Below, piece after piece: positions 52,867 to 63,440 of a stretch of DNA of 64,000 bases. Source of the DNA: Halococcus agarilyticus (GTDB lineage: Archaea > Halobacteriota > Halobacteria > Halobacteriales > Halococcaceae). Every line of letters begins with the position of its first letter. Position 1 is the stretch's first letter. A program made the position numbers and the translations under genes. The DNA is taken from the NCBI RefSeq assembly GCF_000334895.1, contig NZ_BAFM01000010.1, positions 1 to 64,000 of the forward strand, given 5' to 3'. The notes under the pieces were generated by a model. The model worked only from the letters and a program-made list of their open reading frames with translations. It did no database searches and was not told the origin of the DNA.

Positions 52867-54081
52867 TCACGATAGTCCGGGAATCGTTGATAACACTCGA
52901 TAGAGAGCGAAACTCACCGCGCCTGCACCGAGCATCGACCCGACCCAACTCACGACCGTATAGCCGGTTTTTCGTGGCGAAAAGTCGCCACTCCCGGGCC
53001 GTGCAGCGAGTCCGGCCCCGATGATGCTCGAAATCATGACCTTGTTGAACGAGATGGGGATACCGAACACGATGGCGAGTTGTGCCATCAGAAACGCCGG
53101 AACGAGCGCCGCGATCGAGCGGCGCGGGCCGAGCGTGGCGTACTCAGTGGAGACGGCCTGAACCAACCGTGGTGCGCCCGTCCACGCGCCGACGAGAATC
53201 CCGGCACCGCCAAGCAACAGCAGGTACACCGTCGGGAACCCGAGGTTTCCGGAGAACACCGTTTCGAGCGGGCCGGTAGCGAGACCGACCTGCGTCCCGC
53301 CGCTCGTGAACGTCACGAGGAGGCCGAGGACAATCAGAAATCGTTGCATTCCGGATTCGAGCGATCGCCGGAGCGACCGTCGGACCAGCACGAACGCGAC
53401 CACTCCAAACAAGAGGCTCACGCCACCCATCGTGAGGGTGTACGATCCAAGCGAGACCGGCGTGGTGAGTCCCGCGGTGGCCGCGAGATACCGCGCCAGC
53501 GTCCCCTGCTCGCCGGCACCGCCCGTCGGAATCACCGAGAGTCGGATGTTCGCTATGGCAAAGCCGACGAAGCCGGCGACGAAGGGGATGCTGGCCGACT
53601 CGGGCACGCGCTCGTATCTCAGGACGGTAGCGATGACGAATCCGAGCACCCCCTCCACGACGACGATAGCGGCCCAGAACCCGAGGATTTTCGCGTATTC
53701 GGCGGTAGCGAGACTGCCGCCGAGAGCGAGACCGACGCCCACCACGGAACCAGTGACCGTGAACGCCGATGGGATCGGGTAGCCCCTGAACACGCCAAGC
53801 GAGATGAACGTCGCCGCAGTGAGCAGGGCAGCGGCGGCGAGCGGCGTGATCCGTGTCCCGTGAATGAGGTTTCGCCCGACCGTCTCCGAGATGCTCCCGC
53901 CTTGCACCACCGCCCCGAGACTGGCGAACAGACCCACGAGCAGCGCCGCCCGCATGACTGGCAGCGAATCGGCCCCAACAGCGGGTGCGAGCGGTGGCGA
54001 GTTGCTGTTCGCCCCGATGGTCCACGACATGAACAGCGCCGCAACGAGCGCAATCCCGACGAGCAGCAGTTGGTTGGCCAT
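52867..54081 (-). CDS. Inorganic phosphate transporter, PiT family
   Basis: A 404-residue polytopic permease of the PiT family (cation-coupled phosphate uptake). The inverted repeats of the family occur as GANSNSPPLAPAVGA with GRNLIHGTRI near the start and as AIVFGIPISFNKVMISSIIGAGLA with GWVGSML-like region near the end. The usual GANDVAN is GANSNSP here, so ion or substrate choice may differ. It stands alone, with no PhoU gene nearby. Confidence 0.85.
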   Translation of the reverse strand: MANQLLLVGIALVAALFMSWTIGANSNSPPLAPAVGADSLPVMRAALLVGLFASLGAVVQGGSISETVGRNLIHGTRITPLAAAALLTAATFISLGVFRGYPIPSAFTVTGSVVGVGLALGGSLATAEYAKILGFWAAIVVVEGVLGFVIATVLRYERVPESASIPFVAGFVGFAIANIRLSVIPTGGAGEQGTLARYLAATAGLTTPVSLGSYTLTMGGVSLLFGVVAFVLVRRSLRRSLESGMQRFLIVLGLLVTFTSGGTQVGLATGPLETVFSGNLGFPTVYLLLLGGAGILVGAWTGAPRLVQAVSTEYATLGPRRSIAALVPAFLMAQLAIVFGIPISFNKVMISSIIGAGLAARPGSGDFSPRKTGYTVVSWVGSMLGAGAVSFALYRVLSTIPGLS

Positions 54082-54340
54082 CCCGCGTCCGATTAGGGAC
54101 GACCGCGATCGTGTTCGGATTTTGCGGAGATTCAGTGGCTTCGACCGGAGCGCTGACTGTCATCTATTCGGCGGTTTGTGTCGAGACGGTTCAATCCTCA
54201 TATTTGCTCGCGAGGATTGCTACCGATGCCGTTCTTTGTGAAGTGTATCGACGGAATCGCGGATGGTACGTGGAGATCATCGTCGCCGAACCCGAGACAC
54301 GACCCGAACTCTTCTTCTCGGCTCGCTTCTTTCACCCCCA

Positions 54341-54670
54341 ATGGATTTCGAGATCAGCAGCGACGACTTCGATGAGATCGAGGAGCGATTGATGGAAGTA
54401 CAGCGGCGCATTGCGGAGTTTCGAGCGGGAACGAAGGTCAGTCTCGCCGAGTTCTTCGCACCGACGCTCATGCGGGAACATACCCAGTTCGAATCGTTCG
54501 CGCAATTCCGCGATGACTGCCCTCGAAACCCGAACACAGGCGAGGAACTAGCAGCAATTCCCGACGAGGTGCTCGACCCGTTCGCAACGGAGACGACGGA
54601 GTTCGAGTCGTGGCAGGCGATGCAGAACCGGGCCGCACAGGAAGAGATCATCAGTCAACTCACCTTCTGA
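54341..54670 (+). CDS. Small acidic haloarchaeal protein, unknown
   Basis: A 109-residue soluble protein with a helical N-terminal half (DDFDEIEERLMEVQRRIAEF) then an acidic region with LAEFFAPTLMREHTQFESF. ATG 54341 is preferred because the upstream frame lacks acidic bias. The gene lies just left of the accessory peptide cluster but on the opposite strand to its operon. No family was recognised. Confidence 0.6.
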   Translation: MDFEISSDDFDEIEERLMEVQRRIAEFRAGTKVSLAEFFAPTLMREHTQFESFAQFRDDCPRNPNTGEELAAIPDEVLDPFATETTEFESWQAMQNRAAQEEIISQLTF

Positions 54671-54978
54671 TCCGTCTCCAGTTCATCCTGCTCGATAGCA
54701 GAATTACTCTGGTACATCCGGTGCGATGTCGCTGAAAACGCTGATACGGACCGTGAATCATCCGGTAGGGCTCGTCGATCCGTGGGCCGTGGCCTCGCAG
54801 TCAGCGGCGGCCCCGCTGATCGGTCCGCTCTCGGGAAAGATAGAGCGGCGCTATCCTCAGTGTGAGCGGCCCCACTGTGCAGAGATTGCGGCCGAACGTT
54901 CTCGAAAGAAGGCCACACGAGCGTGGTGTCGACCCAAATTACTTCCTTGGTTCCTGTAGATGAGACCAGGTATGCGTT
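54671..54978. other. Gap with no convincing gene
   Basis: This stretch of about 308 bases precedes the SdpI-family gene. A 78-codon frame (54726-54959) lacks acidic bias and domain features. The right edge becomes AT-rich and holds the promoter of the SdpI-family gene. I see no other feature. Confidence 0.5.
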
Positions 54979-54980
54979 TA

Positions 54981-54990
54981 ATTTATATAA
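54981..54990 (+). promoter_or_regulatory. TATA box of the SdpI-family gene
   Basis: The sequence atttatataa is centred 27 nt before GTG 55013, in a clear AT-rich patch. It predicts a strong leaderless promoter for the candidate immunity gene. Confidence 0.65.
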
Positions 54991-55012
54991 CTAGAGTATT
55001 GGATTGTGTCAT

Positions 55013-55723
55013 GTGACCGAATCAAAGACGACAAATCCGAATGGAGATACACGAAACCGTCGACAGGCCGGTTTGGACGCCGGTACCCTCCACAAATCGG
55101 GTATCGTGTTCGTATTCACAGTCCTCTTGGCTCTGTTCGCCGTCGTTCGTCTCCCCGCTTCGGTCGTGGTTCTCTGGGACGCAAGCGGGAATTCGGTAGT
55201 CACGCTGTCTACACCGACGGCTGTCGCTTCGGTGCTGGTTGTTCAGGTGATCCTCCTTGGCGTATTCGCCATCGCGCCGCGGGTCAACAGAATCGAGAAA
55301 ACGGTAGCGTCGGTTCGCGATGCGTATCAGTGGACTGCCTTCGCACTGGTGAGTCTCGTGTTGCTCGTCTTCGCGACGATCGTCGCGTGGAATAGCGGTC
55401 TGCAGTTCGGCGGTGGACAGCCTCTCTCGACGCGGATCGGGGCGCTGGTTGTCGCTATCCTGCTGTACAGTGGTTCGAAAGCGTTGCCGGTCCTCGAACA
55501 GAACCGGTTGGTCGGAATCCGCTCGCCGTGGACGATGAGCGACGAGACGGTCTGGAACCGGACCCACGATCACGCAGTTCCGTTCTTCAAAATCATTGCC
55601 GTCATCGCGGCCCTCGCCGCCGCCGCTCCGTCGGTGATAGTCGCTCTCGTACTCATCGTCGTCCCGTTCCTCTCGGTGCTCGGGTATCTGTACTACTACT
55701 CGTATCGTCTCTACGATGGGTGA
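55013..55723 (+). CDS. SdpI-family membrane protein, candidate immunity protein
   Basis: A 236-residue protein starting at GTG 55013, fixed by its promoter. About six membrane helices are present. The signature NRLVGIRSPWTMSDETVWNRTHD (about residues 165-187, read in parts) is diagnostic of the SdpI family, whose Bacillus founder protects against the SDP peptide toxin. It converges with the RiPP-like operon and shares its accessory surroundings. An immunity role is inferred from family and location; other family members have no known toxin. Confidence 0.8.
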   Translation: MTESKTTNPNGDTRNRRQAGLDAGTLHKSGIVFVFTVLLALFAVVRLPASVVVLWDASGNSVVTLSTPTAVASVLVVQVILLGVFAIAPRVNRIEKTVASVRDAYQWTAFALVSLVLLVFATIVAWNSGLQFGGGQPLSTRIGALVVAILLYSGSKALPVLEQNRLVGIRSPWTMSDETVWNRTHDHAVPFFKIIAVIAALAAAAPSVIVALVLIVVPFLSVLGYLYYYSYRLYDG

Positions 55724-56084
55724 GACGCGGTTCCCGGACGCCGCTCACGCATCGGTGCCGGACACCGTGTCCGTGAGGCGGCCAGCCGTGATTCGAGACC
55801 GTCTCTTGTTTCGTGGACATCCGGGACGATCCGACCAGCCGTCGAAAGCGGTCGGTGTCGTCGTCGCTGGGCCAGCGTGGTCGGAGCACCTACTGATCGT
55901 CGGATCGGCGTACCCTCCATGCGAGCAAGCCGTCCCCCGACTCACGGCGACGCTGGCAAGTGACCGCGTACGGAACCAGTCCGGCCCCGTCGGTACCCGG
56001 CGTCTCTCCAGCCGAACATGGCGAAAACCGGACGTCACAGGGGCCGATACGACGACCGGCACTGCCGACCACGCGGTGACGTGC
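55724..56084. other. Gap between converging SdpI gene and ABC permease gene
   Basis: This space of about 360 bases contains only frames without clear coding character. One plus-strand frame starts within the SdpI stop (55716) but runs antisense into the permease gene, so it is doubtful. No strong hairpin or repeat was seen. Confidence 0.45.
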
Positions 56085-56891
56085 TCACGTCGCCGGGAGG
56101 ATGTCCTCGGTATCAAACCGGGTCGTTACCCAGTAGCCACAGATCGCGATCAGACACAGAATCGAGACGATCGAGGCCAGTGAGAACAGGAGCAGATTCA
56201 GATTGGGGAACAGATTAACGAGAATAGTCAACGCTAGACCGGGGATGATTCCGACGGCGCTAAACAGATCTTGAACGCCATCGGACAGGTCGCCACCAAT
56301 TCCCATCGACCCGAGGATGACGACGAGATTCGCCCAGATAGCAGTCGGGAGCGGGAGGAGAAACGCGGGAAGAAGTGTCGCGTTCAGCTGGGAACCGAGC
56401 TGTGCGCCCATCGAGAGGAGCACAGCGATCGGAATCCCGAGTGCGACCAGGGCGAACGAGAACACCTGTAGCAAGGTGACGAGGGTCGTCGACACCAGCA
56501 GCGAGTTGAACACCTGTCGCTCGTGGTACGGGGAACTGAGCAAGAGCTCGAACTGGCCACTGGAGATCAGATTTCCCGCCATGCGCTGCCCGGTGTTCAC
56601 TCCCAGCACACTCGAGAACGTCGCGAGGAGGTACGGTCCCTGGATCAGAAACAGCGCCAGCGCGAAGGCGTACTCGCTGTTTTGCGTTTCGAAGTAGAGT
56701 CCCACGAGTCGCTGGACGCTCCGTCTCGTCGTCGGCGTCACCGATCCCGGAGAACCGATACTCACCACGGTGATCCCCCCAAACACCACGGCCAAAAACA
56801 GCGGCATGGCGAACAGTTTGAGCCGCCGGGAGTGCAGTTGCTGCCACACCAGCGCCTCCGAGAGGTCGATCGTTTCGGTTTCGTTACTCAT
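56085..56891 (-). CDS. ABC transporter permease (operon gene 7)
   Basis: A 268-residue membrane protein with six hydrophobic segments and a cytosolic N-terminus, similar in layout to ABC-2-type permeases that export lipids, drugs or peptides (residues 95-130 contain the LFLIQGPYLLATFSSVLG helix). Its start overlaps the ABC ATPase stop by eight bases. It is the last gene of the minus-strand operon that begins with the precursor peptide. Peptide export or self-protection is the inferred role. Confidence 0.8.
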   Translation of the reverse strand: MSNETETIDLSEALVWQQLHSRRLKLFAMPLFLAVVFGGITVVSIGSPGSVTPTTRRSVQRLVGLYFETQNSEYAFALALFLIQGPYLLATFSSVLGVNTGQRMAGNLISSGQFELLLSSPYHERQVFNSLLVSTTLVTLLQVFSFALVALGIPIAVLLSMGAQLGSQLNATLLPAFLLPLPTAIWANLVVILGSMGIGGDLSDGVQDLFSAVGIIPGLALTILVNLFPNLNLLLFSLASIVSILCLIAICGYWVTTRFDTEDILPAT

Positions 56892-57792
56892 AGTTCGCCT
56901 CGATGTTCTTGTACAGTGATTTGACGGAGTTCTCCATCATCTTCACCTCTCGAACGTTGATGCCGTCTCGTGCGAGCCTCGTGACGAGATCGCTCATCTC
57001 GGTCTCCGGTCGCTTGGTCACGACCACGTACGAATCTTCGACCGCCGGTTCGTAGCCCTCGCTCTCGAGGGCCTGGCGAGCTGCATCGGTATCGACAGCC
57101 TCGAAACCGATGGTCGGTCGTTCGAAGGCGCGGTCACGGACCTCCTCGATGCTTCCGTCGAACACCAGTTGGCCGTCCCGCATTATGAGCAGACGTTCCG
57201 CCAGGTCGTCTGCCTCGTTCAGGTCGTGGGTCGAATAGATGACCGTCTGTGTCTTGCCCAGCTGATCGAGATAGGAACGGATATCCTGTGCGATCATCGG
57301 ATCGAGTCCGGTCGTCGCCTCGTCGAGAAACAACACTGACGGGTCCGGAAGGAGCGCCTGTCCTATCGATGCACGCTGGGACTGCCCACGGCTCAACTCG
57401 CCAGCGTTACGATCCAAAAGTTCGCGGAAATCGAATCGGTCCGCCAGCTGCTCGATCCGGTCGGAGACAGTTTCCGTCGGGAGGTTCTGTACCTTCCCCC
57501 AGAACCTGAGATTCTGCCGCACCGTCAACCCGGTGTTGAGAACCGGACGATGTGGGAGGTAACTCACGTCCCGTTTCACGCTCGCTTCTTCGTACGGGCT
57601 CCGCCCGTCGACCAAAACCGTGCCCTCGTCGGGCTCCAGAATCCCGCACCCACAGCGAAACAGCGTGGTCTTCCCGCAGCCGTTCGGGCCGAGGAGGACA
57701 TTGAAGCCCCGATCCAACTCGAGAGTCACGTCGTCGAGGACGCGCAACGACTTGTATCCTGCCGTCACCGAAGAGTAAGCGATACCGGTCAT
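56884..57792 (-). CDS. ABC transporter ATP-binding protein (operon gene 6)
   Basis: A 302-residue ATPase with Walker A GPNGCGKTT (residues 35-43), signature LSRGQ (133-137), Walker B VLFLDEATTGLD (153-164) and a switch His in YSTHDLNEAD. A roughly 80-residue C-terminal extension resembles those of ABC-2 exporters. Its ATG overlaps the stop of the 42-residue ORF by four bases. No peptidase C39 domain is present, so leader removal must be done elsewhere. Confidence 0.93.
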   Translation of the reverse strand: MTGIAYSSVTAGYKSLRVLDDVTLELDRGFNVLLGPNGCGKTTLFRCGCGILEPDEGTVLVDGRSPYEEASVKRDVSYLPHRPVLNTGLTVRQNLRFWGKVQNLPTETVSDRIEQLADRFDFRELLDRNAGELSRGQSQRASIGQALLPDPSVLFLDEATTGLDPMIAQDIRSYLDQLGKTQTVIYSTHDLNEADDLAERLLIMRDGQLVFDGSIEEVRDRAFERPTIGFEAVDTDAARQALESEGYEPAVEDSYVVVTKRPETEMSDLVTRLARDGINVREVKMMENSVKSLYKNIEANYE

Positions 57793-57917
57793 CCGTATTT
57801 ACTCCAGTCACGACGATCGTTCGCCGGAGCGATCGGATATCCGAACGTAGGCGGTGTTCCATCGACGCCTCCGGCTGGTCCGTTTCGTCTTCCGTGGGTC
57901 CGTGTTGTTGTACTCAT
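57789..57917 (-). CDS. 42-residue ORF in the operon (gene 5)
   Basis: ATG 57917 lies three bases after the stop of the DUF3887-like gene, and its TGA overlaps the ABC ATPase start (ATGA). The product, about MSTTTRTHGRRNGPAGG...DRRDWSKYG, is basic and Gly/Pro-rich, unlike usual acidic haloarchaeal proteins. Tight coupling on both sides argues for a real gene. It might be a second peptide substrate, an RNA- or lipid-binding helper, or a translational linker. The evidence is positional only. Confidence 0.55.
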   Translation of the reverse strand: MSTTTRTHGRRNGPAGGVDGTPPTFGYPIAPANDRRDWSKYG

Positions 57918-57920
57918 TGT

Positions 57921-58652
57921 TTATCCGTCTCGAATTCGAAGCGTACCGATCGCACCGTCATCGGTGACGGTAACGAAGAATTCCTTCGAACCGCTGGCGT
58001 CCGCGAGAGCCAGTTGAATCACGTCCCGCTTTTTACACATGGCTTCGATACCTTCGAACGAGTCGATATGTGTGGTCCATCCCGACTCGATGTCGGCCAC
58101 CGTTACCTGCTCTTTGAGTTCCGCAGTGAGCATCTCGTACACCGTCTGGAACTCCCCCTGGTCGAGCAAGTCGACGACGTCCGTGACGATGTCGTGTTCT
58201 CGCTCCGTGAGTTCCTGCTTTCGGTTGCGGAGTCTGCCGGTGATAGACGACACTTTGGATTTGCCCAGTAGCCCTACGTCACCGAGGGAGTCCAGCAAGC
58301 CCACGTCCTTGTCTTTAAAAATATACAGCCCCTTCGGATCCGCGTTGTCTGTGTAGAATATCTGAATTTTGAACGGCTCGTCGCCGAAATTTCCGTACGC
58401 CTCGACGGCCCGCTCTGACGAGTCCATATCGGTTTCGTCCGATAAGTCCGGGTCGACGACGATTTCGTCCACGCCTGCGAAGTGGCCGTGTACGTCTTCG
58501 GTCTTTTGCCATGCCGATGTAATCTGAGTCGCCGCCGCCTGGCCGAAACTTGTGATACTGTCGCGCGTTCCGGTGTCCAGAGACCCGATAATGTCCCTGG
58601 ATTTCTTCTCCAGCAGTTCACCTGGTAACTCGTTCTCATTGTTTTCTGTCAT
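57921..58652 (-). CDS. DUF3887-like protein (operon gene 4)
   Basis: A 243-residue soluble acidic protein. The C-terminal 110 residues (VVDLLDQGEFQTVYEMLTAEL, VTVADIESGW, then FFVTVTDDGAIGTLRI) match the DUF3887 pattern of a cystatin/NTF2-like fold. The N-terminal half has a distinct alpha/beta region with FKIQIFYTDNADPKGLYIF. Its start lies 17 bases inside the upstream membrane gene, so the two are coupled. It may bind the precursor or product; this is inferred. Confidence 0.7.
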   Translation of the reverse strand: MTENNENELPGELLEKKSRDIIGSLDTGTRDSITSFGQAAATQITSAWQKTEDVHGHFAGVDEIVVDPDLSDETDMDSSERAVEAYGNFGDEPFKIQIFYTDNADPKGLYIFKDKDVGLLDSLGDVGLLGKSKVSSITGRLRNRKQELTEREHDIVTDVVDLLDQGEFQTVYEMLTAELKEQVTVADIESGWTTHIDSFEGIEAMCKKRDVIQLALADASGSKEFFVTVTDDGAIGTLRIRDG

Positions 58653-59346
58653 TAATATACCTCTTATTAAATACAGATTTAAATTTTATTGTTATAAATA
58701 TGGCCAAGAGCAAGACGAGCGGCCCACAGACGATTTTCGCCGCCCGTTTCGTAGATACATCCCAGGCGGCCGACCCCATCTTGATCCAGTTTACACCCGT
58801 CCAGACCACCGCTATGGGATAGAGGATATTCGTGAATCGCACGACGGTAAAGGACTGGATTATCGAGGAGCGCGCCTGAACGAGTTCTACGGACTCAGGG
58901 GCCGAGATCTGCGTGATAGCGAACAGCGTCGCGGCCGTCCCGAGGAGTGAACTGAGGACGTACGGTATCATCCCGACACCCGTCAACCAGACGGTCGCTC
59001 TCAAATCGACATCGATGAAGCTCAACGTCGCGATCACGTAGAACGCGACAGCCGTCCCGATCCAGACTGCAAGCGGTAACAGGACGGCAGTCACAGCCGA
59101 GATGAGATAGATATTCGTCGTCGAGCCGGGAAGGACGGGCGCTACCCACCTGACACTCGCTATCGCACTGACGAGGTTCGATACAGCAGCCAGTAGGACG
59201 ATCGCCGCTGGCGTCCGAAGTTGATCCAGTTCCTGCCGGTCGACGATCTCTCGCAGATCGAACAGAAGATCGAGAACCAGGGGGACTGGGTTTTTATACT
59301 GTTTATTTGTCATTGTTGCGGTGTTCTTGCGGTTGTGGCCGAACAT
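58636..59346 (-). CDS. Yip1-like membrane protein (operon gene 3)
   Basis: A 236-residue protein with five membrane helices and the Yip1-like pattern WIGTAVAFYVIATLSF followed by VGMIPYVLSSLLGT. ATG 59346 gives a 22-nt gap after the radical SAM gene; ATG 59313 (MTNKQYKNP) is an alternative. The base composition is lower in GC than core genes. In the peptide operon it may help membrane insertion, export or immunity, but nothing in the sequence decides this. Confidence 0.75.
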   Translation of the reverse strand: MFGHNRKNTATMTNKQYKNPVPLVLDLLFDLREIVDRQELDQLRTPAAIVLLAAVSNLVSAIASVRWVAPVLPGSTTNIYLISAVTAVLLPLAVWIGTAVAFYVIATLSFIDVDLRATVWLTGVGMIPYVLSSLLGTAATLFAITQISAPESVELVQARSSIIQSFTVVRFTNILYPIAVVWTGVNWIKMGSAAWDVSTKRAAKIVCGPLVLLLAIFITIKFKSVFNKRYINDRKQ

Positions 59347-59368
59347 TGGGTGGTAGTCGACTCCGTGG

Positions 59369-60448
59369 TCAGGTTCTGACTTTGTCGTCGGTCCCAGTCA
59401 CATCGATGTCATCGAGCTTTCGCATGATTTCGTCTTTGTTCTCGGCGAGCCGGGCGACGTTCTTTTCGGTACGATCGCTGAGGAACACGTCGCTTTTGAT
59501 GAGTTCCGTCCGATTTTCGCGGACGTATTCGAGAAACTCGTCTCGGTAGTCACCCAGCAGATCGTGACAGGCGTGGCAGATGCCGGTGTACTCGACTGCC
59601 GGGTCGACGCCCATGCGATCGAGGAGCCGTTTCGGTCCGACCTCGTGTATGAGCCAGTAGACGAGATTGTCCTGCGAGTTCTGGATGATATTGACCAGCG
59701 AGTCCTCTTTCAGGTTCCCCATCGTGAGGTCGGGGCGATAGAACTGGGCGTGACCACAGCAGACTTTGACCGACCCGTCCGGGTGAATCGAAAAGGTGCT
59801 AACGACGTCGCGACACCCGACGTCGACGTCTTTGACTGCGGAGTACCTGCTGGGGTCCAGCTGGATGCCCGAACCCATCGGCGCGGCCGCGTCTTGGAGG
59901 GTGTGTAGCTTTCCGATTTCACCGACCGGGCGACCGACCCGTTCTTCGATGGCTGCTTCCATCCGCTCTAGGTCGTACTCGGGCTCCTCGCTACCGATGA
60001 TACAGGCCAGCGCAACAGCGCTGAGTTCATCGTACTCCAGGGACGCCTCGATCATGTTCACGATGTTCTCGAAGTCCATGTACTCCGTGTGGAAATCGTC
60101 GTAGCTGGTGTTGATCTCGTCGAGGCCTGCGTCAACGAGGTCCTGGAGCATATCGTGGGTGTTATCCATATCGTGCGCCCACCAGGCGTTCGTGACGATT
60201 CGGGTGTTGAGACCCGCTTCGGAACATCGTTCGATTCCTTCGAGGAGCTTGTCCTTGTGAAGCGTACATTCACCGCCGGTGAAACACACCAGCTGGAGCG
60301 TGTCGAGGGTCTCAAGTTCGTCGAACACGTCCCCCCGCAAGTCGTCCGGCATTTCGAATTTCGTTTCCGGACTGCTCCCCACGCTACAGTGATCACAGGC
60401 GAAGTTACACTGATAGTCGAGAAACACCGAAACTGACGTTGGAATCAT
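59369..60448 (-). CDS. Radical SAM/SPASM peptide-modifying enzyme (operon gene 2)
   Basis: A 359-residue radical SAM protein with the cluster motif CNFACDHC (Cys14, Cys18, Cys21) and the SAM-binding FTGGECTLH. A C-terminal SPASM-like region has Cys ligands in VGCRDVVSTF, VKVCCGHAQF and ICHACHDLLG. Such enzymes form thioether or carbon-carbon links on peptides. No N-terminal RiPP recognition domain is seen, since the cluster motif comes at residue 14. It follows the precursor gene by 65 nt in the same operon. Confidence 0.9.
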   Translation of the reverse strand: MIPTSVSVFLDYQCNFACDHCSVGSSPETKFEMPDDLRGDVFDELETLDTLQLVCFTGGECTLHKDKLLEGIERCSEAGLNTRIVTNAWWAHDMDNTHDMLQDLVDAGLDEINTSYDDFHTEYMDFENIVNMIEASLEYDELSAVALACIIGSEEPEYDLERMEAAIEERVGRPVGEIGKLHTLQDAAAPMGSGIQLDPSRYSAVKDVDVGCRDVVSTFSIHPDGSVKVCCGHAQFYRPDLTMGNLKEDSLVNIIQNSQDNLVYWLIHEVGPKRLLDRMGVDPAVEYTGICHACHDLLGDYRDEFLEYVRENRTELIKSDVFLSDRTEKNVARLAENKDEIMRKLDDIDVTGTDDKVRT

Positions 60449-60513
60449 TACTGTTTTGATGTTGATTGGTATCGTTTGAATTGGATTCAGTTAGTGTGAA
60501 CACCGAGTACCGC

Positions 60514-61047
60514 CTAGTAGTGCCCGGTCGTCACAGTCGTGTTCACAGCGGCTCCCACCGTCGCGGCGACGCCTGCGGCGGCGGCGGCGACCACGACCAC
60601 GACAGCTGCGACACACGCTGCGACTGCGGAACATGCGATGTGGCCATCGACAACCGGCGTCTCGGCGTTGCTGGCTTCCGCCATCGAATCGATCTGGGAG
60701 TCGATCTCGATGAGCGCCTCGACATCGTCCTTGGACAACGTGTACTCGTTTGCCTCTTCGGCGAGCTCCTCAATGGAGACGCTGTCGATATCCTCGACGC
60801 CCTGCATGTTGAGAGCTTCCTCGAACTCCTTCGTGCAGAGGTCGGTATAGGAGTCGAGAACCTCGTCCGAGATGGTCTCCTCAGTCACGAGCTCGGAGAT
60901 CTCCTCTTCGTCGAAGAGTCCACTAAAGTAAACGGAGGAACTCACGATTTCGGCCTTGAACGGGTCTATATCGGTCTTGAATTCCCCGTTGTGTGCGATG
61001 CTCTGCGAGTGATCTACATTTTCGGACCCAGTTACTGCCGTGGGCAT
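60514..61047 (-). CDS. Putative RiPP precursor peptide (operon gene 1)
   Basis: A 177-residue protein with a very acidic N-terminal part (1-130; many Asp/Glu, one Cys at 71) and a sharply different C-terminus. It runs HIACSAVAACVAAVV, then a long run of Val/Ala/Gly, and ends NTTVTTGHY. Cys139 and Cys145 sit at the start of the hydrophobic part. The layout fits a leader plus a membrane-active core of about 40-45 residues. It directly precedes a radical SAM/SPASM gene and ABC genes. The leader is long for a RiPP, so the exact cut site is unknown. Confidence 0.7.
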   Translation of the reverse strand: MPTAVTGSENVDHSQSIAHNGEFKTDIDPFKAEIVSSSVYFSGLFDEEEISELVTEETISDEVLDSYTDLCTKEFEEALNMQGVEDIDSVSIEELAEEANEYTLSKDDVEALIEIDSQIDSMAEASNAETPVVDGHIACSAVAACVAAVVVVVAAAAAGVAATVGAAVNTTVTTGHY

Positions 61048-61066
61048 ATCCAGTTGAATGAAGAGG

Positions 61067-61080
61067 AATAATTAAATAGT
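61067..61080 (-). promoter_or_regulatory. TATA box of the peptide operon
   Basis: Minus-strand actatttaattatt is centred 27 nt before ATG 61047, predicting a leaderless mRNA. The gap 61048-61141 is AT-rich and contains no gene, so this is the main promoter of the seven-gene operon. Confidence 0.65.
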
Positions 61081-61141
61081 TTTCGACCATATCGATAAAT
61101 CGTAACATCGGTCTTACTGGCGAATCATATGATGGTCAACG

Positions 61142-61653
61142 ATGAACAAGCAGTCAGCACAAGTCTTCCTGCCACCGCGTGAGCGATGCTTTGAGTGTCT
61201 CCGTCTCGCCCGGTTCGGCGAGACGGTGACATGTGTCCACTGCGAGAAAGACGCTGTCGTCAAGCGAGGGACGACCAGCAAAGATGCCCAGCAATACTGG
61301 TGTAAGGCGTGCGAGACCTACTTCAACGACCTCACTCACACGCTCTTCGGCCAGCATCGGTTCGCCCTAGAAGAGATGTTCTACATCGTCAAGGAAATGC
61401 GATCTAAGCCGACCACTCAAATCGCTCGGGACCTCGGTCGAGATTACGAGGCTGTCCTCAACTTCGTTCACACAGTCCAGGACGTGGGCGGTGATATCGA
61501 TGAAATCGCCATAGCTTCCTTCGTCAGTGACTGGTGAAGTTCCGAGGTATCTCAAAACGTCACCTCCAGAAATACCCTGGCTTCCTCGAACTGAAGCTCA
61601 ACTCACCGAACGACAGCTTCGAGAATTTGCTGTGGTACGATGTATTGGGATGA
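61142..61653 (+). pseudogene. IS1595-type transposase, internally deleted
   Basis: The N-terminal frame (61142-61537) gives a zinc-ribbon region (CFECLRL, CVHCEKDAVVKRG, YWCKACETYF) and a helix-turn-helix (TTQIARDLGRDYEAV), typical of IS1595-family transposases. It ends at TGA in a different frame from the C-terminal end (61537-61653, GISKRHLQKYPGFLELKLNS...YDVLG). The DDE catalytic middle, about 130-150 codons, is missing. The element is dead and lies immediately upstream of the peptide operon. Confidence 0.8.
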
Positions 61654-61868
61654 GCAATAGTTCGGTGAAACCATTCTAATAATTCGATTCGGCGGCCACG
61701 CCGACCCGGTGGAGGACAGATAGGCAACGCGACGGCCGTCTGCTGATTCACGATGTCCGAGCCCACCACCGATGCACAGAAGGGGAATCGAGAGGATGGA
61801 CCGTTTGCTGACCACTCAAGCCGATCAGGTGCCTCGCTGACGGCCTACGGCGTTCCCGTGGGGGTGCC

Positions 61869-61967
61869 ATAGGGATTAGCAGTGGTGTTCGGGGGTTCGT
61901 TCCAGAAATCGAGCTACCCGAGGGGCCACTCTCGATGGGATCTATGGGAATAACTGCTAATCCCTAT
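61869..61967. mobile_element. 99-bp MITE-like inverted-repeat element
   Basis: Perfect 15-bp inverted ends, ATAGGGATTAGCAGT (61869-61883) and ACTGCTAATCCCTAT (61953-61967), enclose 69 bases without coding features. The right end supplies the stop codon of the gene at 61957-62562. The structure suits a miniature transposon or a long 3' hairpin. The larger gap 61654-61868 holds no clear gene. Confidence 0.55.
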
Positions 61968-62562
61968 AGCCGTGCGTCCCCGTGGTCGGTGTGGTCCCGC
62001 TGAGGGCATCTCGTCCCGTCTGTAGTGTGTGGTCGCAACTCTCCCGTATAGCTTTCCTCTCCGATGCAGGGTAGTCTTCGACAACATCTCTCACGTCGTC
62101 TAGCGTCGTTTTCACATCGCCCTGGATCGCTTCTACCGTGGTTCGAGTATCGTCGGTGAGTTCGAGGTTTGTCAGAAAGCACTCGTAGGTACTGTGTTCC
62201 AGTAACCCTCGCGCGACAACCCCGGCACCGATGCGTTCCGCAGTTTCGTTCCGCGTGCGGAGGTGGTCGTAGACCGCTCCCCCGGAAGAAGGATGGTATT
62301 CGCCCGACAGACAGGACCCGAACCGCTCCAGATGCTGCTGTTTTCTGTCCGCGAGAACAGCGAACAACTCCCGTGCTCGATCGTCGGGTTCGCTGAATGT
62401 CCACTGAGAGTACAGCGACTTCGCACCGTAGAGACCGTTACACGCCAATTCGATGGCTCCTCGCTCGTCGGATGGGGATTCGAGAAGTGCTAATAGCCAC
62501 TGCTCCGAGTGATACAGGTCGAACGCCATCTCGTTAGCGGTCCGAATTTCGGTCAAATCCAC
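61957..62562 (-). CDS. All-helical protein, unknown
   Basis: A 201-residue protein starting at GTG 62562, 25-27 nt after an AT-rich TATA region (62582-62592). It is mostly helical with many Glu/Arg/Leu residues, no signal and no membrane helix. The first half (MAFDLYHSEQWLLALLES, GAIELACNGLYGAKSLYSQW, ELFAVLADRKQQHLERF) suggests a ferritin-like or four-helix bundle. Its stop codon lies in the inverted-repeat end at 61957, so the last residues may have been altered by that element. Not recognised. Confidence 0.65.
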   Translation of the reverse strand: MDLTEIRTANEMAFDLYHSEQWLLALLESPSDERGAIELACNGLYGAKSLYSQWTFSEPDDRARELFAVLADRKQQHLERFGSCLSGEYHPSSGGAVYDHLRTRNETAERIGAGVVARGLLEHSTYECFLTNLELTDDTRTTVEAIQGDVKTTLDDVRDVVEDYPASERKAIRESCDHTLQTGRDALSGTTPTTGTHGYRD

Positions 62563-62581
62563 AAGTAGATAGTATTAACAT

Positions 62582-62592
62582 CATATAATATT
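62582..62592 (-). promoter_or_regulatory. AT-rich promoter of the helical protein gene
   Basis: On the minus strand aatattatatga is centred about 25 nt before GTG 62562, predicting a leaderless mRNA. Confidence 0.5.
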
Positions 62593-62665
62593 ATTTTGGC
62601 GATTTCTATGCTGGATCGAGCGGACACGGCACCACGTCGAAAGTCGCTCGCTCGCATCACTCTCG

Positions 62666-62980
62666 TTACGCGTCACAGCTGTAGAGCCAGTCGACGAGCT
62701 CCATTATCACCGCTTCAAACACAGATGTCGTATCCCCCGTCGCTGGGATAGTGTTCAGATACGCAGGGCTGTAACTCGCCTTGTGAACCCAGTTATGGAT
62801 CGTCGACCGCGCACGAGTAACGCCGAATATTTCGAGAATCGATACGGTATTCGAAAGCGAAAGACCGGCGAGATGCAACTGAATTCCCAGCTTCAGCAAC
62901 AGCCGTGGCGTTGCTTCTCGCTCCACAAACTCTACGTCGATTTCGCCCAAACAACCGCCGAGGCCGGTGGAATTTGGCAT
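62666..62980 (-). pseudogene. IS6-type transposase N-terminal fragment
   Basis: The first about 68 residues match the start of haloarchaeal IS6-family transposases: CLGEIDVEFVEREATPRLLL, then QLHLAGLSLSNTVSILEIFGV and ARSTIHNWVHKA (HTH region). After that, the sequence changes to unrelated residues and stops at 104. The catalytic domain is absent. This marks a broken insertion on the right side of the accessory region. Confidence 0.8.
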
Positions 62981-63039
62981 GAAGCACTGAAATCACTCCG
63001 CGCCCCACGTTTCAGCCGTATCTGAACACTATCGATTAA

Positions 63040-63440
63040 AACCCGTAAGCGAGAACTGTGGTCACGGAGTGAACCTGCCTCGGGGTCAAGCCCCGAGACT
63101 TCCCGCTTCGGCGTCGGAACTTGCACCCTCCGAAGAAGGCACAGTGGTTCCAGACTCCACGGGCGTTCTTCCACGTTGACGAGACGCTTCGCGTCTCGTT
63201 CGCACACCAGAACGCTTCGCGTTCTGGGGACGCTGGAAAGATTCGGAGCGTCCCGCCCCTATCTTTCGGGATGGGCGTTCCGGAACGCGCCACGCCGAAC
63301 GCCGGGGGTTTGTTCAGCCTCCCGTACTTACGTTCTGGCGGGCCATGTGGCCTATCACGTCCGAACAGAGGTTCGGACGAATCATAAAGCTTACGCGATT
63401 CACCCTCGCGGTCAAGCCGCGAGGCATTCTCGCTGTCTTT
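63040..63440. ncRNA. Hairpin-rich non-coding element
   Basis: Two related hairpins bracket the stretch: CTCGGGG-TCAAG-CCCCGAG (63079-63097) and CCTCGCGG-TCAAG-CCGCGAGG (63404-63424), sharing a TCAAG loop. Between them are CGAGACGC-TTC-GCGTCTCG (63180-63198), CCAGAACGC-TTC-GCGTTCTGG (63207-63227) and GTCCGAAC-AGAG-GTTCGGAC (63359-63378). No frame has a coding character. It may be the non-coding end of an IS200/IS605-type element or a structured RNA. The assignment is uncertain. Confidence 0.4.

Follow-up and report, generated by a model that had tools for sequence, protein, structure and literature searches.

What does the gene at positions 60514..61047 (minus strand) of the window, by which we mean the whole 64,000-nucleotide stretch of Halococcus agarilyticus contig NZ_BAFM01000010.1 that was analysed, encode, and what does the radical S-adenosylmethionine (SAM) enzyme encoded beside it do to the product? 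The initial annotation had read the gene as a peptide precursor of a new class, with two C-terminal cysteines that might be joined to alpha carbons by thioether bridges as in sactipeptides. At a probability of roughly 0.55, we instead consider the locus to be a haloarchaeal peptide-toxin cluster, the product of which would be an epimerised, cleaved, exported and disulfide-closed membrane peptide. This explanation builds on the observation of a family of precursors that is linked to the enzyme, on the relationship of that enzyme to known epimerases, a conserved catalytic cysteine and the conservation of the cluster.

The precursor and its enzyme form a conserved pair

The gene starts with an ATG at 61047, is present as a single copy in its own genome, as a search of the source genome revealed, and encodes a protein of 177 residues. 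The switch from an acidic part to a hydrophobic two-cysteine end that the initial annotation described is real: aspartate and glutamate make up a fraction of 0.27 of the leader versus 0.02 of the last 45 residues, the highest Kyte-Doolittle mean over 15 residues reaches 2.97 within the core versus 0.81 elsewhere, and the most hydrophobic 15-residue stretch begins at residue 141. The motif HIACSAVAAC spans residues 136-145, and Cys139 (codon at 60631-60633) and Cys145 (codon at 60613-60615) are separated by five residues, as claimed; a third cysteine, Cys71, which the initial annotation did not mention, lies in the leader. We propose residues 139-177 (60517..60633, minus strand) as the core. 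The leader had been called unusually long and atypical, and it indeed matches no curated Pfam or NCBIfam family at its cut-off. An AlphaFold model of the precursor had a mean predicted local distance difference test (pLDDT) score of 41.6 and was not used, and a scan of 60400-61200 with bacterial consensus sequences only found neither promoter nor terminator.

To define the family, 391 genomes of the class were searched with the precursor and with the adjacent enzyme. The enzyme was found at E<=1e-20 in 5/391 genomes, and the precursor at E<=1e-5 in those identical five. Precursor matches at E<=0.1 occurred in 64/391 genomes and were mostly short; the 59 genomes whose match was weaker than 1e-5 were discounted as chance hits, and of these only locus L008 (L numbers are our locus designations) was viewed individually, with no radical SAM gene noticed among its open reading frames (ORFs). 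Three more loci came from a search of contigs with the enzyme alignment, namely L059 and L060 from Halorussus halobius and L061 from a Halobacteriales metagenome-assembled genome; the same search with the single precursor sequence gave no matches. Relatives of the enzyme were not found in viral contigs, and among 294 genomes of the phylum an enzyme match at E<=1e-30 was confined to the window's own genome. One of the loci, L038, is a Halocatena salina plasmid.

At all eight haloarchaeal loci a homologous precursor adjoins the enzyme, upstream of it in seven and downstream in L059. Across the other seven loci the enzymes are 48-56% and the precursors 23-30% identical to the window proteins. We regard the precursor family and its linkage to the enzyme beyond chance as well supported, and with homologue and enzyme paired at 8/8 loci the initial proposal that the gene encodes the precursor of a radical-SAM-modified peptide is very likely correct. 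The homologues share the opening M(D)AVKAAxxIDH, which supports the choice of start codon. Within this opening part, residues 4-16 (61000..61038, minus strand) form a conserved motif in the alignment of the eight proteins, with A4, V5, D12, H13 and S16 invariant, and it is probably recognised by the enzyme or the exporter. The Halorussus halobius locus L059 consists of a bare enzyme-precursor pair (L059:10001-11668) flanked by genes that by eye resemble those for methionine synthase and nucleoside diphosphate kinase; the same organism also has a full cluster, at L060. A literature search limited to openly licensed papers, and hence weak evidence, retrieved no paper on this archaeal family. According to a survey of archaeal ribosomally synthesised and post-translationally modified peptides (PMC12144867), ranthipeptides and sactipeptides are among the archaeal radical SAM classes; its text nowhere uses the word epipeptide.

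The enzyme resembles peptide epimerases

The enzyme gene lies directly downstream of the precursor gene on the same strand (59369..60448, minus) and encodes an EpeE/YydG-like protein of 359 residues, an assignment that draws on NCBIfam, Pfam, a sequence search of PDB, Foldseek, alignment and a tree. The protein has Pfam matches to Radical_SAM and SPASM, its top NCBIfam model is the YydG epimerase (TIGR04078, 8.3e-35), and at E<=0.001 it matched no PDB sequences other than YydG/EpeE. When the predicted enzyme model (mean pLDDT 67, predicted template modelling score 0.67) was submitted to Foldseek, EpeE chains occupied ranks 1-9, followed by BtrN and viperins. The haloarchaeal enzymes formed one group in a 17-row tree with a support of 88/97 (not among the starred branches), with the bacterial relatives outside this group and YydG on a long branch.

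Eight cysteines are invariant in the enzymes of all eight loci: C14, C18, C21, C212, C230, C231, C291 and C294. Of these, C14, C18 and C21 together with C212, C230, C291 and C294 fit two [4Fe-4S] clusters, the latter four as putative auxiliary ligands. EpeE contains two [4Fe-4S] clusters in all and its Cys223 was proposed as the likely hydrogen donor; loss of epimerisation with peptide breakage was reported for this residue (PMC8326336). Since seven cysteines would fill two clusters, and the remaining C231 aligns with EpeE Cys223, we propose C231 as the hydrogen donor of the haloarchaeal enzyme. Because the precursor pairs with an EpeE-like enzyme, we argue that residues of the core are epimerised, and in our best reading the enzyme would epimerise residues of a membrane-active peptide of about 40 residues, probably a product of a type that has so far been investigated in bacteria.

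These data suggest the following pathway, in which we infer the epimerisation and the residues concerned, the cleavage, the disulfide, the toxicity and the immunity. Within the hydrophobic core at the C-terminus, the EpeE/YydG-like enzyme would remove hydrogens from alpha carbons, with C231 supplying a hydrogen from the opposite face to yield D-residues. Release of the core, at about residues 139-177, and its export would follow, with a disulfide forming between Cys139 and Cys145 in the manner of the Bacillus toxin SDP. The resulting peptide may insert into the membranes of competing archaea, and an ABC transporter together with a Yip1 partner (or a DUF3784 protein at other loci) may export the peptide or protect the producer.

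Neighbouring genes and genomic setting

Four further genes, located downstream on the minus strand, recur near the enzyme in both L060 and L061, partly rearranged. The nearest (58636..59346) encodes a Yip1-domain membrane protein with a score just under the Pfam gathering score (8e-6), and its relative in L061 is weak (7e-8 by phmmer). It is followed by a DUF3887-like protein (57921..58652), likewise under the Pfam gathering score (1.4e-5), by an ABC transporter ATPase (56884..57792) assigned by NCBIfam and Pfam, to which its relatives in L060 and L061 are both 59% identical, and by a hydrophobic protein (56085..56891) with relatives 47% and 42% identical in L060 and L061, respectively. The latter has no Pfam permease match; we name it a probable ABC permease partner from its position and its relatives.

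None of these four accessory genes was found in L037, L038 or L039; instead, a DUF3784 protein of about 100 residues is encoded near the precursor at each of these loci. DUF3784 is present in 86/391 genomes of the class, and its occurrence no more than about 2.7 kb away from the precursor at 3/3 of these loci is unlikely to be due to chance. The idea that DUF3784 is a divergent SdpI was not supported (hhalign probability 1.1%). Directly after the enzyme, L037 (8141-9418) and L039 (10560-11717) carry a fusion of a DUF3887 domain with an alpha/beta hydrolase, which is a candidate leader-processing or detoxifying enzyme.

On the plus strand, 55004..55723 encodes an SdpI-domain protein (PF13630, 2.1e-14), a possible immunity gene, the membership of which in the cluster is doubtful. 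We did not uphold SdpI as a proven partner, because neither L060 nor L061 has it and homologues are present in 14/41 genomes searched. A 201-residue protein of unknown family (61957-62562, minus), 41% identical over 113 residues to one near the L036 cluster, was left out of the cluster as it also occurs in 14/41 genomes.

The G+C content is 54-62% over about 54 to 63 kb versus 64-68% at 50-54 kb, and the low-GC stretch spans 54000-63400 of the window. An IS1/IS1595-like transposase fragment lies at 61142-61537, and the DUF3887 gene was not found in 40 other genomes searched, nine of them from the same genus. Because of the low G+C, the transposase fragment and the absence of the DUF3887 gene from same-genus genomes, the peptide cluster looks horizontally acquired.

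Weighing the explanation and its alternatives

Several results weigh against the reading of the locus as an epimerised, SDP-like toxin cluster. The enzyme scores 120.7 bits on the YydG model, far below the cut-off of 300, whereas the Macrococcoides YydG reaches 434.6 bits. EpeE Asp210 aligns with T218, which is invariant in the eight enzymes (the EpeE D210A mutant was among the matched structures), and because of this replacement the active site is not identical to that of EpeE. Pfam and NCBIfam scans of the window cluster recognised no leader peptidase, none of the accessory genes tested was found in the flanks of L036 and L059, and the SdpI-like gene has no relative in L060 or L061. Likewise, the SdpC model (TIGR04032) gave 15.5 bits on the window precursor versus a cut-off of 99.2, six cores taken alone did not match it, and 16 other haloarchaeal genomes match it at E<=0.01 similarly weakly. 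Alignment to the SDP sequence gave P values of 0.0005-0.11 for the six cores with C-x5-C, and of 0.58 and 0.32 for the other two. SdpC is the commonest NCBIfam match of the eight precursors (5/8 at E<=10), and of ten shuffles of the core one matched the model, at 11.1 bits. Simple membership in the SdpC or the YydF family was rejected on the curated cut-offs. As the homology to SDP is weak, we limit our claim to the way of working: the window peptide may work like SDP, without being an SdpC.

Searching plasmids with the enzyme returned 14 records, one of them the Halocatena salina plasmid of L038, and nine of the 13 others were examined (H9, H10, H13 and H14 being left out). The bacterial enzymes are 20-29% identical to that of the window. 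A precursor-like gene of small or medium size directly precedes the enzyme in 7/9, namely in Streptomyces, Lactococcus, Thermus, Collinsella, Klebsiella, Enterococcus and Macrococcoides, the last being a true YydF-YydG pair; in Rhizobium (unannotated) and Eleftheria the preceding gene was not counted as precursor-like. Asn-rich alternating stretches occur in the Thermus, Collinsella and Klebsiella precursors, with a methyltransferase gene nearby, and an annotated SdpI family gene lies beside the Thermus and Klebsiella loci and a DUF1648 gene at Collinsella. At L069:4204-4938, L067:4240-4965 and L065:2599-3504, precursors of the NANANAN type precede an EpeE-like enzyme in the company of SdpI or DUF1648 and methyltransferase genes, and these Asn-rich precursors look like a further uncharacterised peptide family. 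On the Lactococcus lactis plasmid p001F (L064:5466-10476), a precursor-like gene, an EpeE-like enzyme, a C1-family peptidase and an ABC transporter follow one another.

The Asn-rich, alternating bacterial precursors with a methyltransferase gene nearby are the reason why we keep a beta-helical channel as a serious, if rather unlikely, rival. Here, many alternating residues of a Val/Ala/Thr core would be flipped to give a membrane channel like polytheonamide, with the cysteine pair being secondary. The cores are rich in Val, Ala, Thr and Asn, and those designated G122 and G100 show a lag-2 Val/Ile pattern (P 0.03 each, with no correction for the 14 cores and two residue sets tested). However, neither the window core (P 0.66) nor most others have a period-2 pattern, and EpeE makes just two epimerisations (PMC7026026). 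Proteusins of the polytheonamide type have a nitrile-hydratase-like leader and a PoyD-type epimerase; no Pfam match of this kind was found for the precursor. A combined version is quite unlikely: archaeal D-amino-acid membrane peptides in which an EpeE-class epimerase makes alternating flips in a disulfide-stapled Val/Ala core that folds into a beta-helical channel. If it were true, an SDP-like core, epipeptide enzymology and a polytheonamide-like architecture would be united in one product, with bacterial plasmid cousins that have Asn-rich alternating cores and SdpI-type genes.

The cysteines of the core bear on the thioether proposal of the initial annotation. Six of the eight cores, including that of the window, have C-x5-C, L059 has C-x4-C and L036 has no core cysteine. 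Homologues without both cysteines, which the initial annotation had named as speaking against its reading, are thus found at one of the eight loci. The L036 precursor ends in ...VAVHVEVTIY, and by eye no lost continuation was seen in the DNA past its stop; the enzyme of L036 is full-length, 56% identical to that of the window and keeps all eight invariant cysteines. On the question raised by the initial annotation, whether residues 135-177 and the two cysteines are the most conserved or the most variable part, the alignment showed the first 20 residues leading in conservation (mean majority fraction 0.69), the surroundings of the cysteine pair coming second (0.59) and the remainder at 0.43-0.48. 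In the C-x5-C cores the residue preceding the first cysteine is Ala or Met, which might suit cleavage just before this cysteine.

A sactipeptide, in which the enzyme would form thioethers between Cys139 and/or Cys145 and alpha carbons of the core, agrees with the two cysteines of a hydrophobic core, with the SPASM match of the adjacent radical SAM enzyme and with the presence of cysteine in 7/8 cores. Sactisynthases are SPASM maturases with two auxiliary clusters; eight invariant cysteines are too few for a second such cluster, yet they provide the hydrogen donor of an epimerase. Although sactisynthases and epimerases both abstract an alpha hydrogen (PMC8326336), the closest relatives of the enzyme by sequence and fold are epimerases, and the cysteine-free core of L036 is paired with an enzyme 56% identical to that of the window. 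Because the enzyme resembles epimerases and one homologue lacks core cysteines, we rejected the sactipeptide as lead explanation and consider it highly unlikely; the thioether chemistry of the initial annotation was not borne out by the EpeE/YydG affinity, the donor cysteine and L036. Epimerisation combined with a disulfide is the more likely chemistry, and the cysteine pair more likely forms an SDP-like disulfide than a thioether.

A protein that stays uncleaved and is anchored in the membrane by its C-terminus, whether or not the enzyme modifies it, and that has a regulatory or structural role, would agree with a hydrophobic tail able to cross the membrane once and with the lack of a recognised leader peptidase, but is very improbable, as the leader-core layout, the epimerase-like enzyme at 8/8 loci, the ABC genes at 3/8, the patchy distribution, the low-GC stretch and the plasmid location suit a bacteriocin-like system better.

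If the peptide-toxin explanation holds, radical SAM peptide epimerisation would reach haloarchaea with a new type of precursor, combining a long leader with a two-cysteine membrane core. Themes that are separate in Bacillus toxins, namely an epimerase, an SDP-like core and Yip1/ABC self-protection, would meet in one probably mobile archaeal cluster. The loci would also offer candidates for testing as archaeal antimicrobial peptides, a group with few chemically defined members, and draw attention to the uncharacterised EpeE-like loci on bacterial plasmids.

Comparison with known systems

In the bacterial plasmid loci, as in the window, a precursor-like gene stands directly ahead of a related enzyme. 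Their precursors differ in that the hydrophobic or Asn-rich stretch is internal and followed by a C-terminal part, and in lacking the cysteine pair; moreover, several of these loci have a methyltransferase gene, and the haloarchaeal enzymes group apart from theirs.

The second system is YydFGHIJ/EpeXEPAB of Bacillus subtilis, in which a small precursor gene is likewise followed by a radical SAM epimerase. EpeE is the nearest solved relative of the window enzyme, and an ABC ATPase-permease pair follows in 3/8 haloarchaeal loci as it does in EpeXEPAB. The YydF epipeptide has 17 residues, undergoes two epimerisations and makes membranes permeable; a role in immunity has been postulated for its ABC pair, the effect of which is minor at most (PMC7026026). 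In contrast, the window precursor is unrelated in sequence, having no NCBIfam match to the YydF model, and is longer (177 residues versus 51 in Macrococcoides YydF), its core has about 40 residues with two cysteines instead of being a 17-mer, and no YydH-like protease was recognised in the window cluster.

SDP carries C-x5-C, and with SDP (SdpC, Bacillus subtilis) the window precursor shares a hydrophobic core of about 40 residues that has two cysteines five residues apart at its start. The SDP toxin has 42 residues and a single disulfide, and its efflux pump YknWXYZ includes the Yip1 protein YknW (PMC4887032); the Yip1 protein and the ABC transporter encoded nearby in the window are reminiscent of this pump, and the window also contains an SdpI-domain gene. 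Neither SdpA nor SdpB was named among the nine window ORFs scanned with Pfam and NCBIfam, and no genome-wide search was made. Unlike SDP, the window cluster has a radical SAM enzyme and a leader without a hydrophobic N-terminal stretch. Taken together, the cluster looks like a mixture of an SDP-like core and Yip1/ABC genes with an epipeptide-like enzyme, and we consider it a new version of the epipeptide theme, archaeal and with a long leader.
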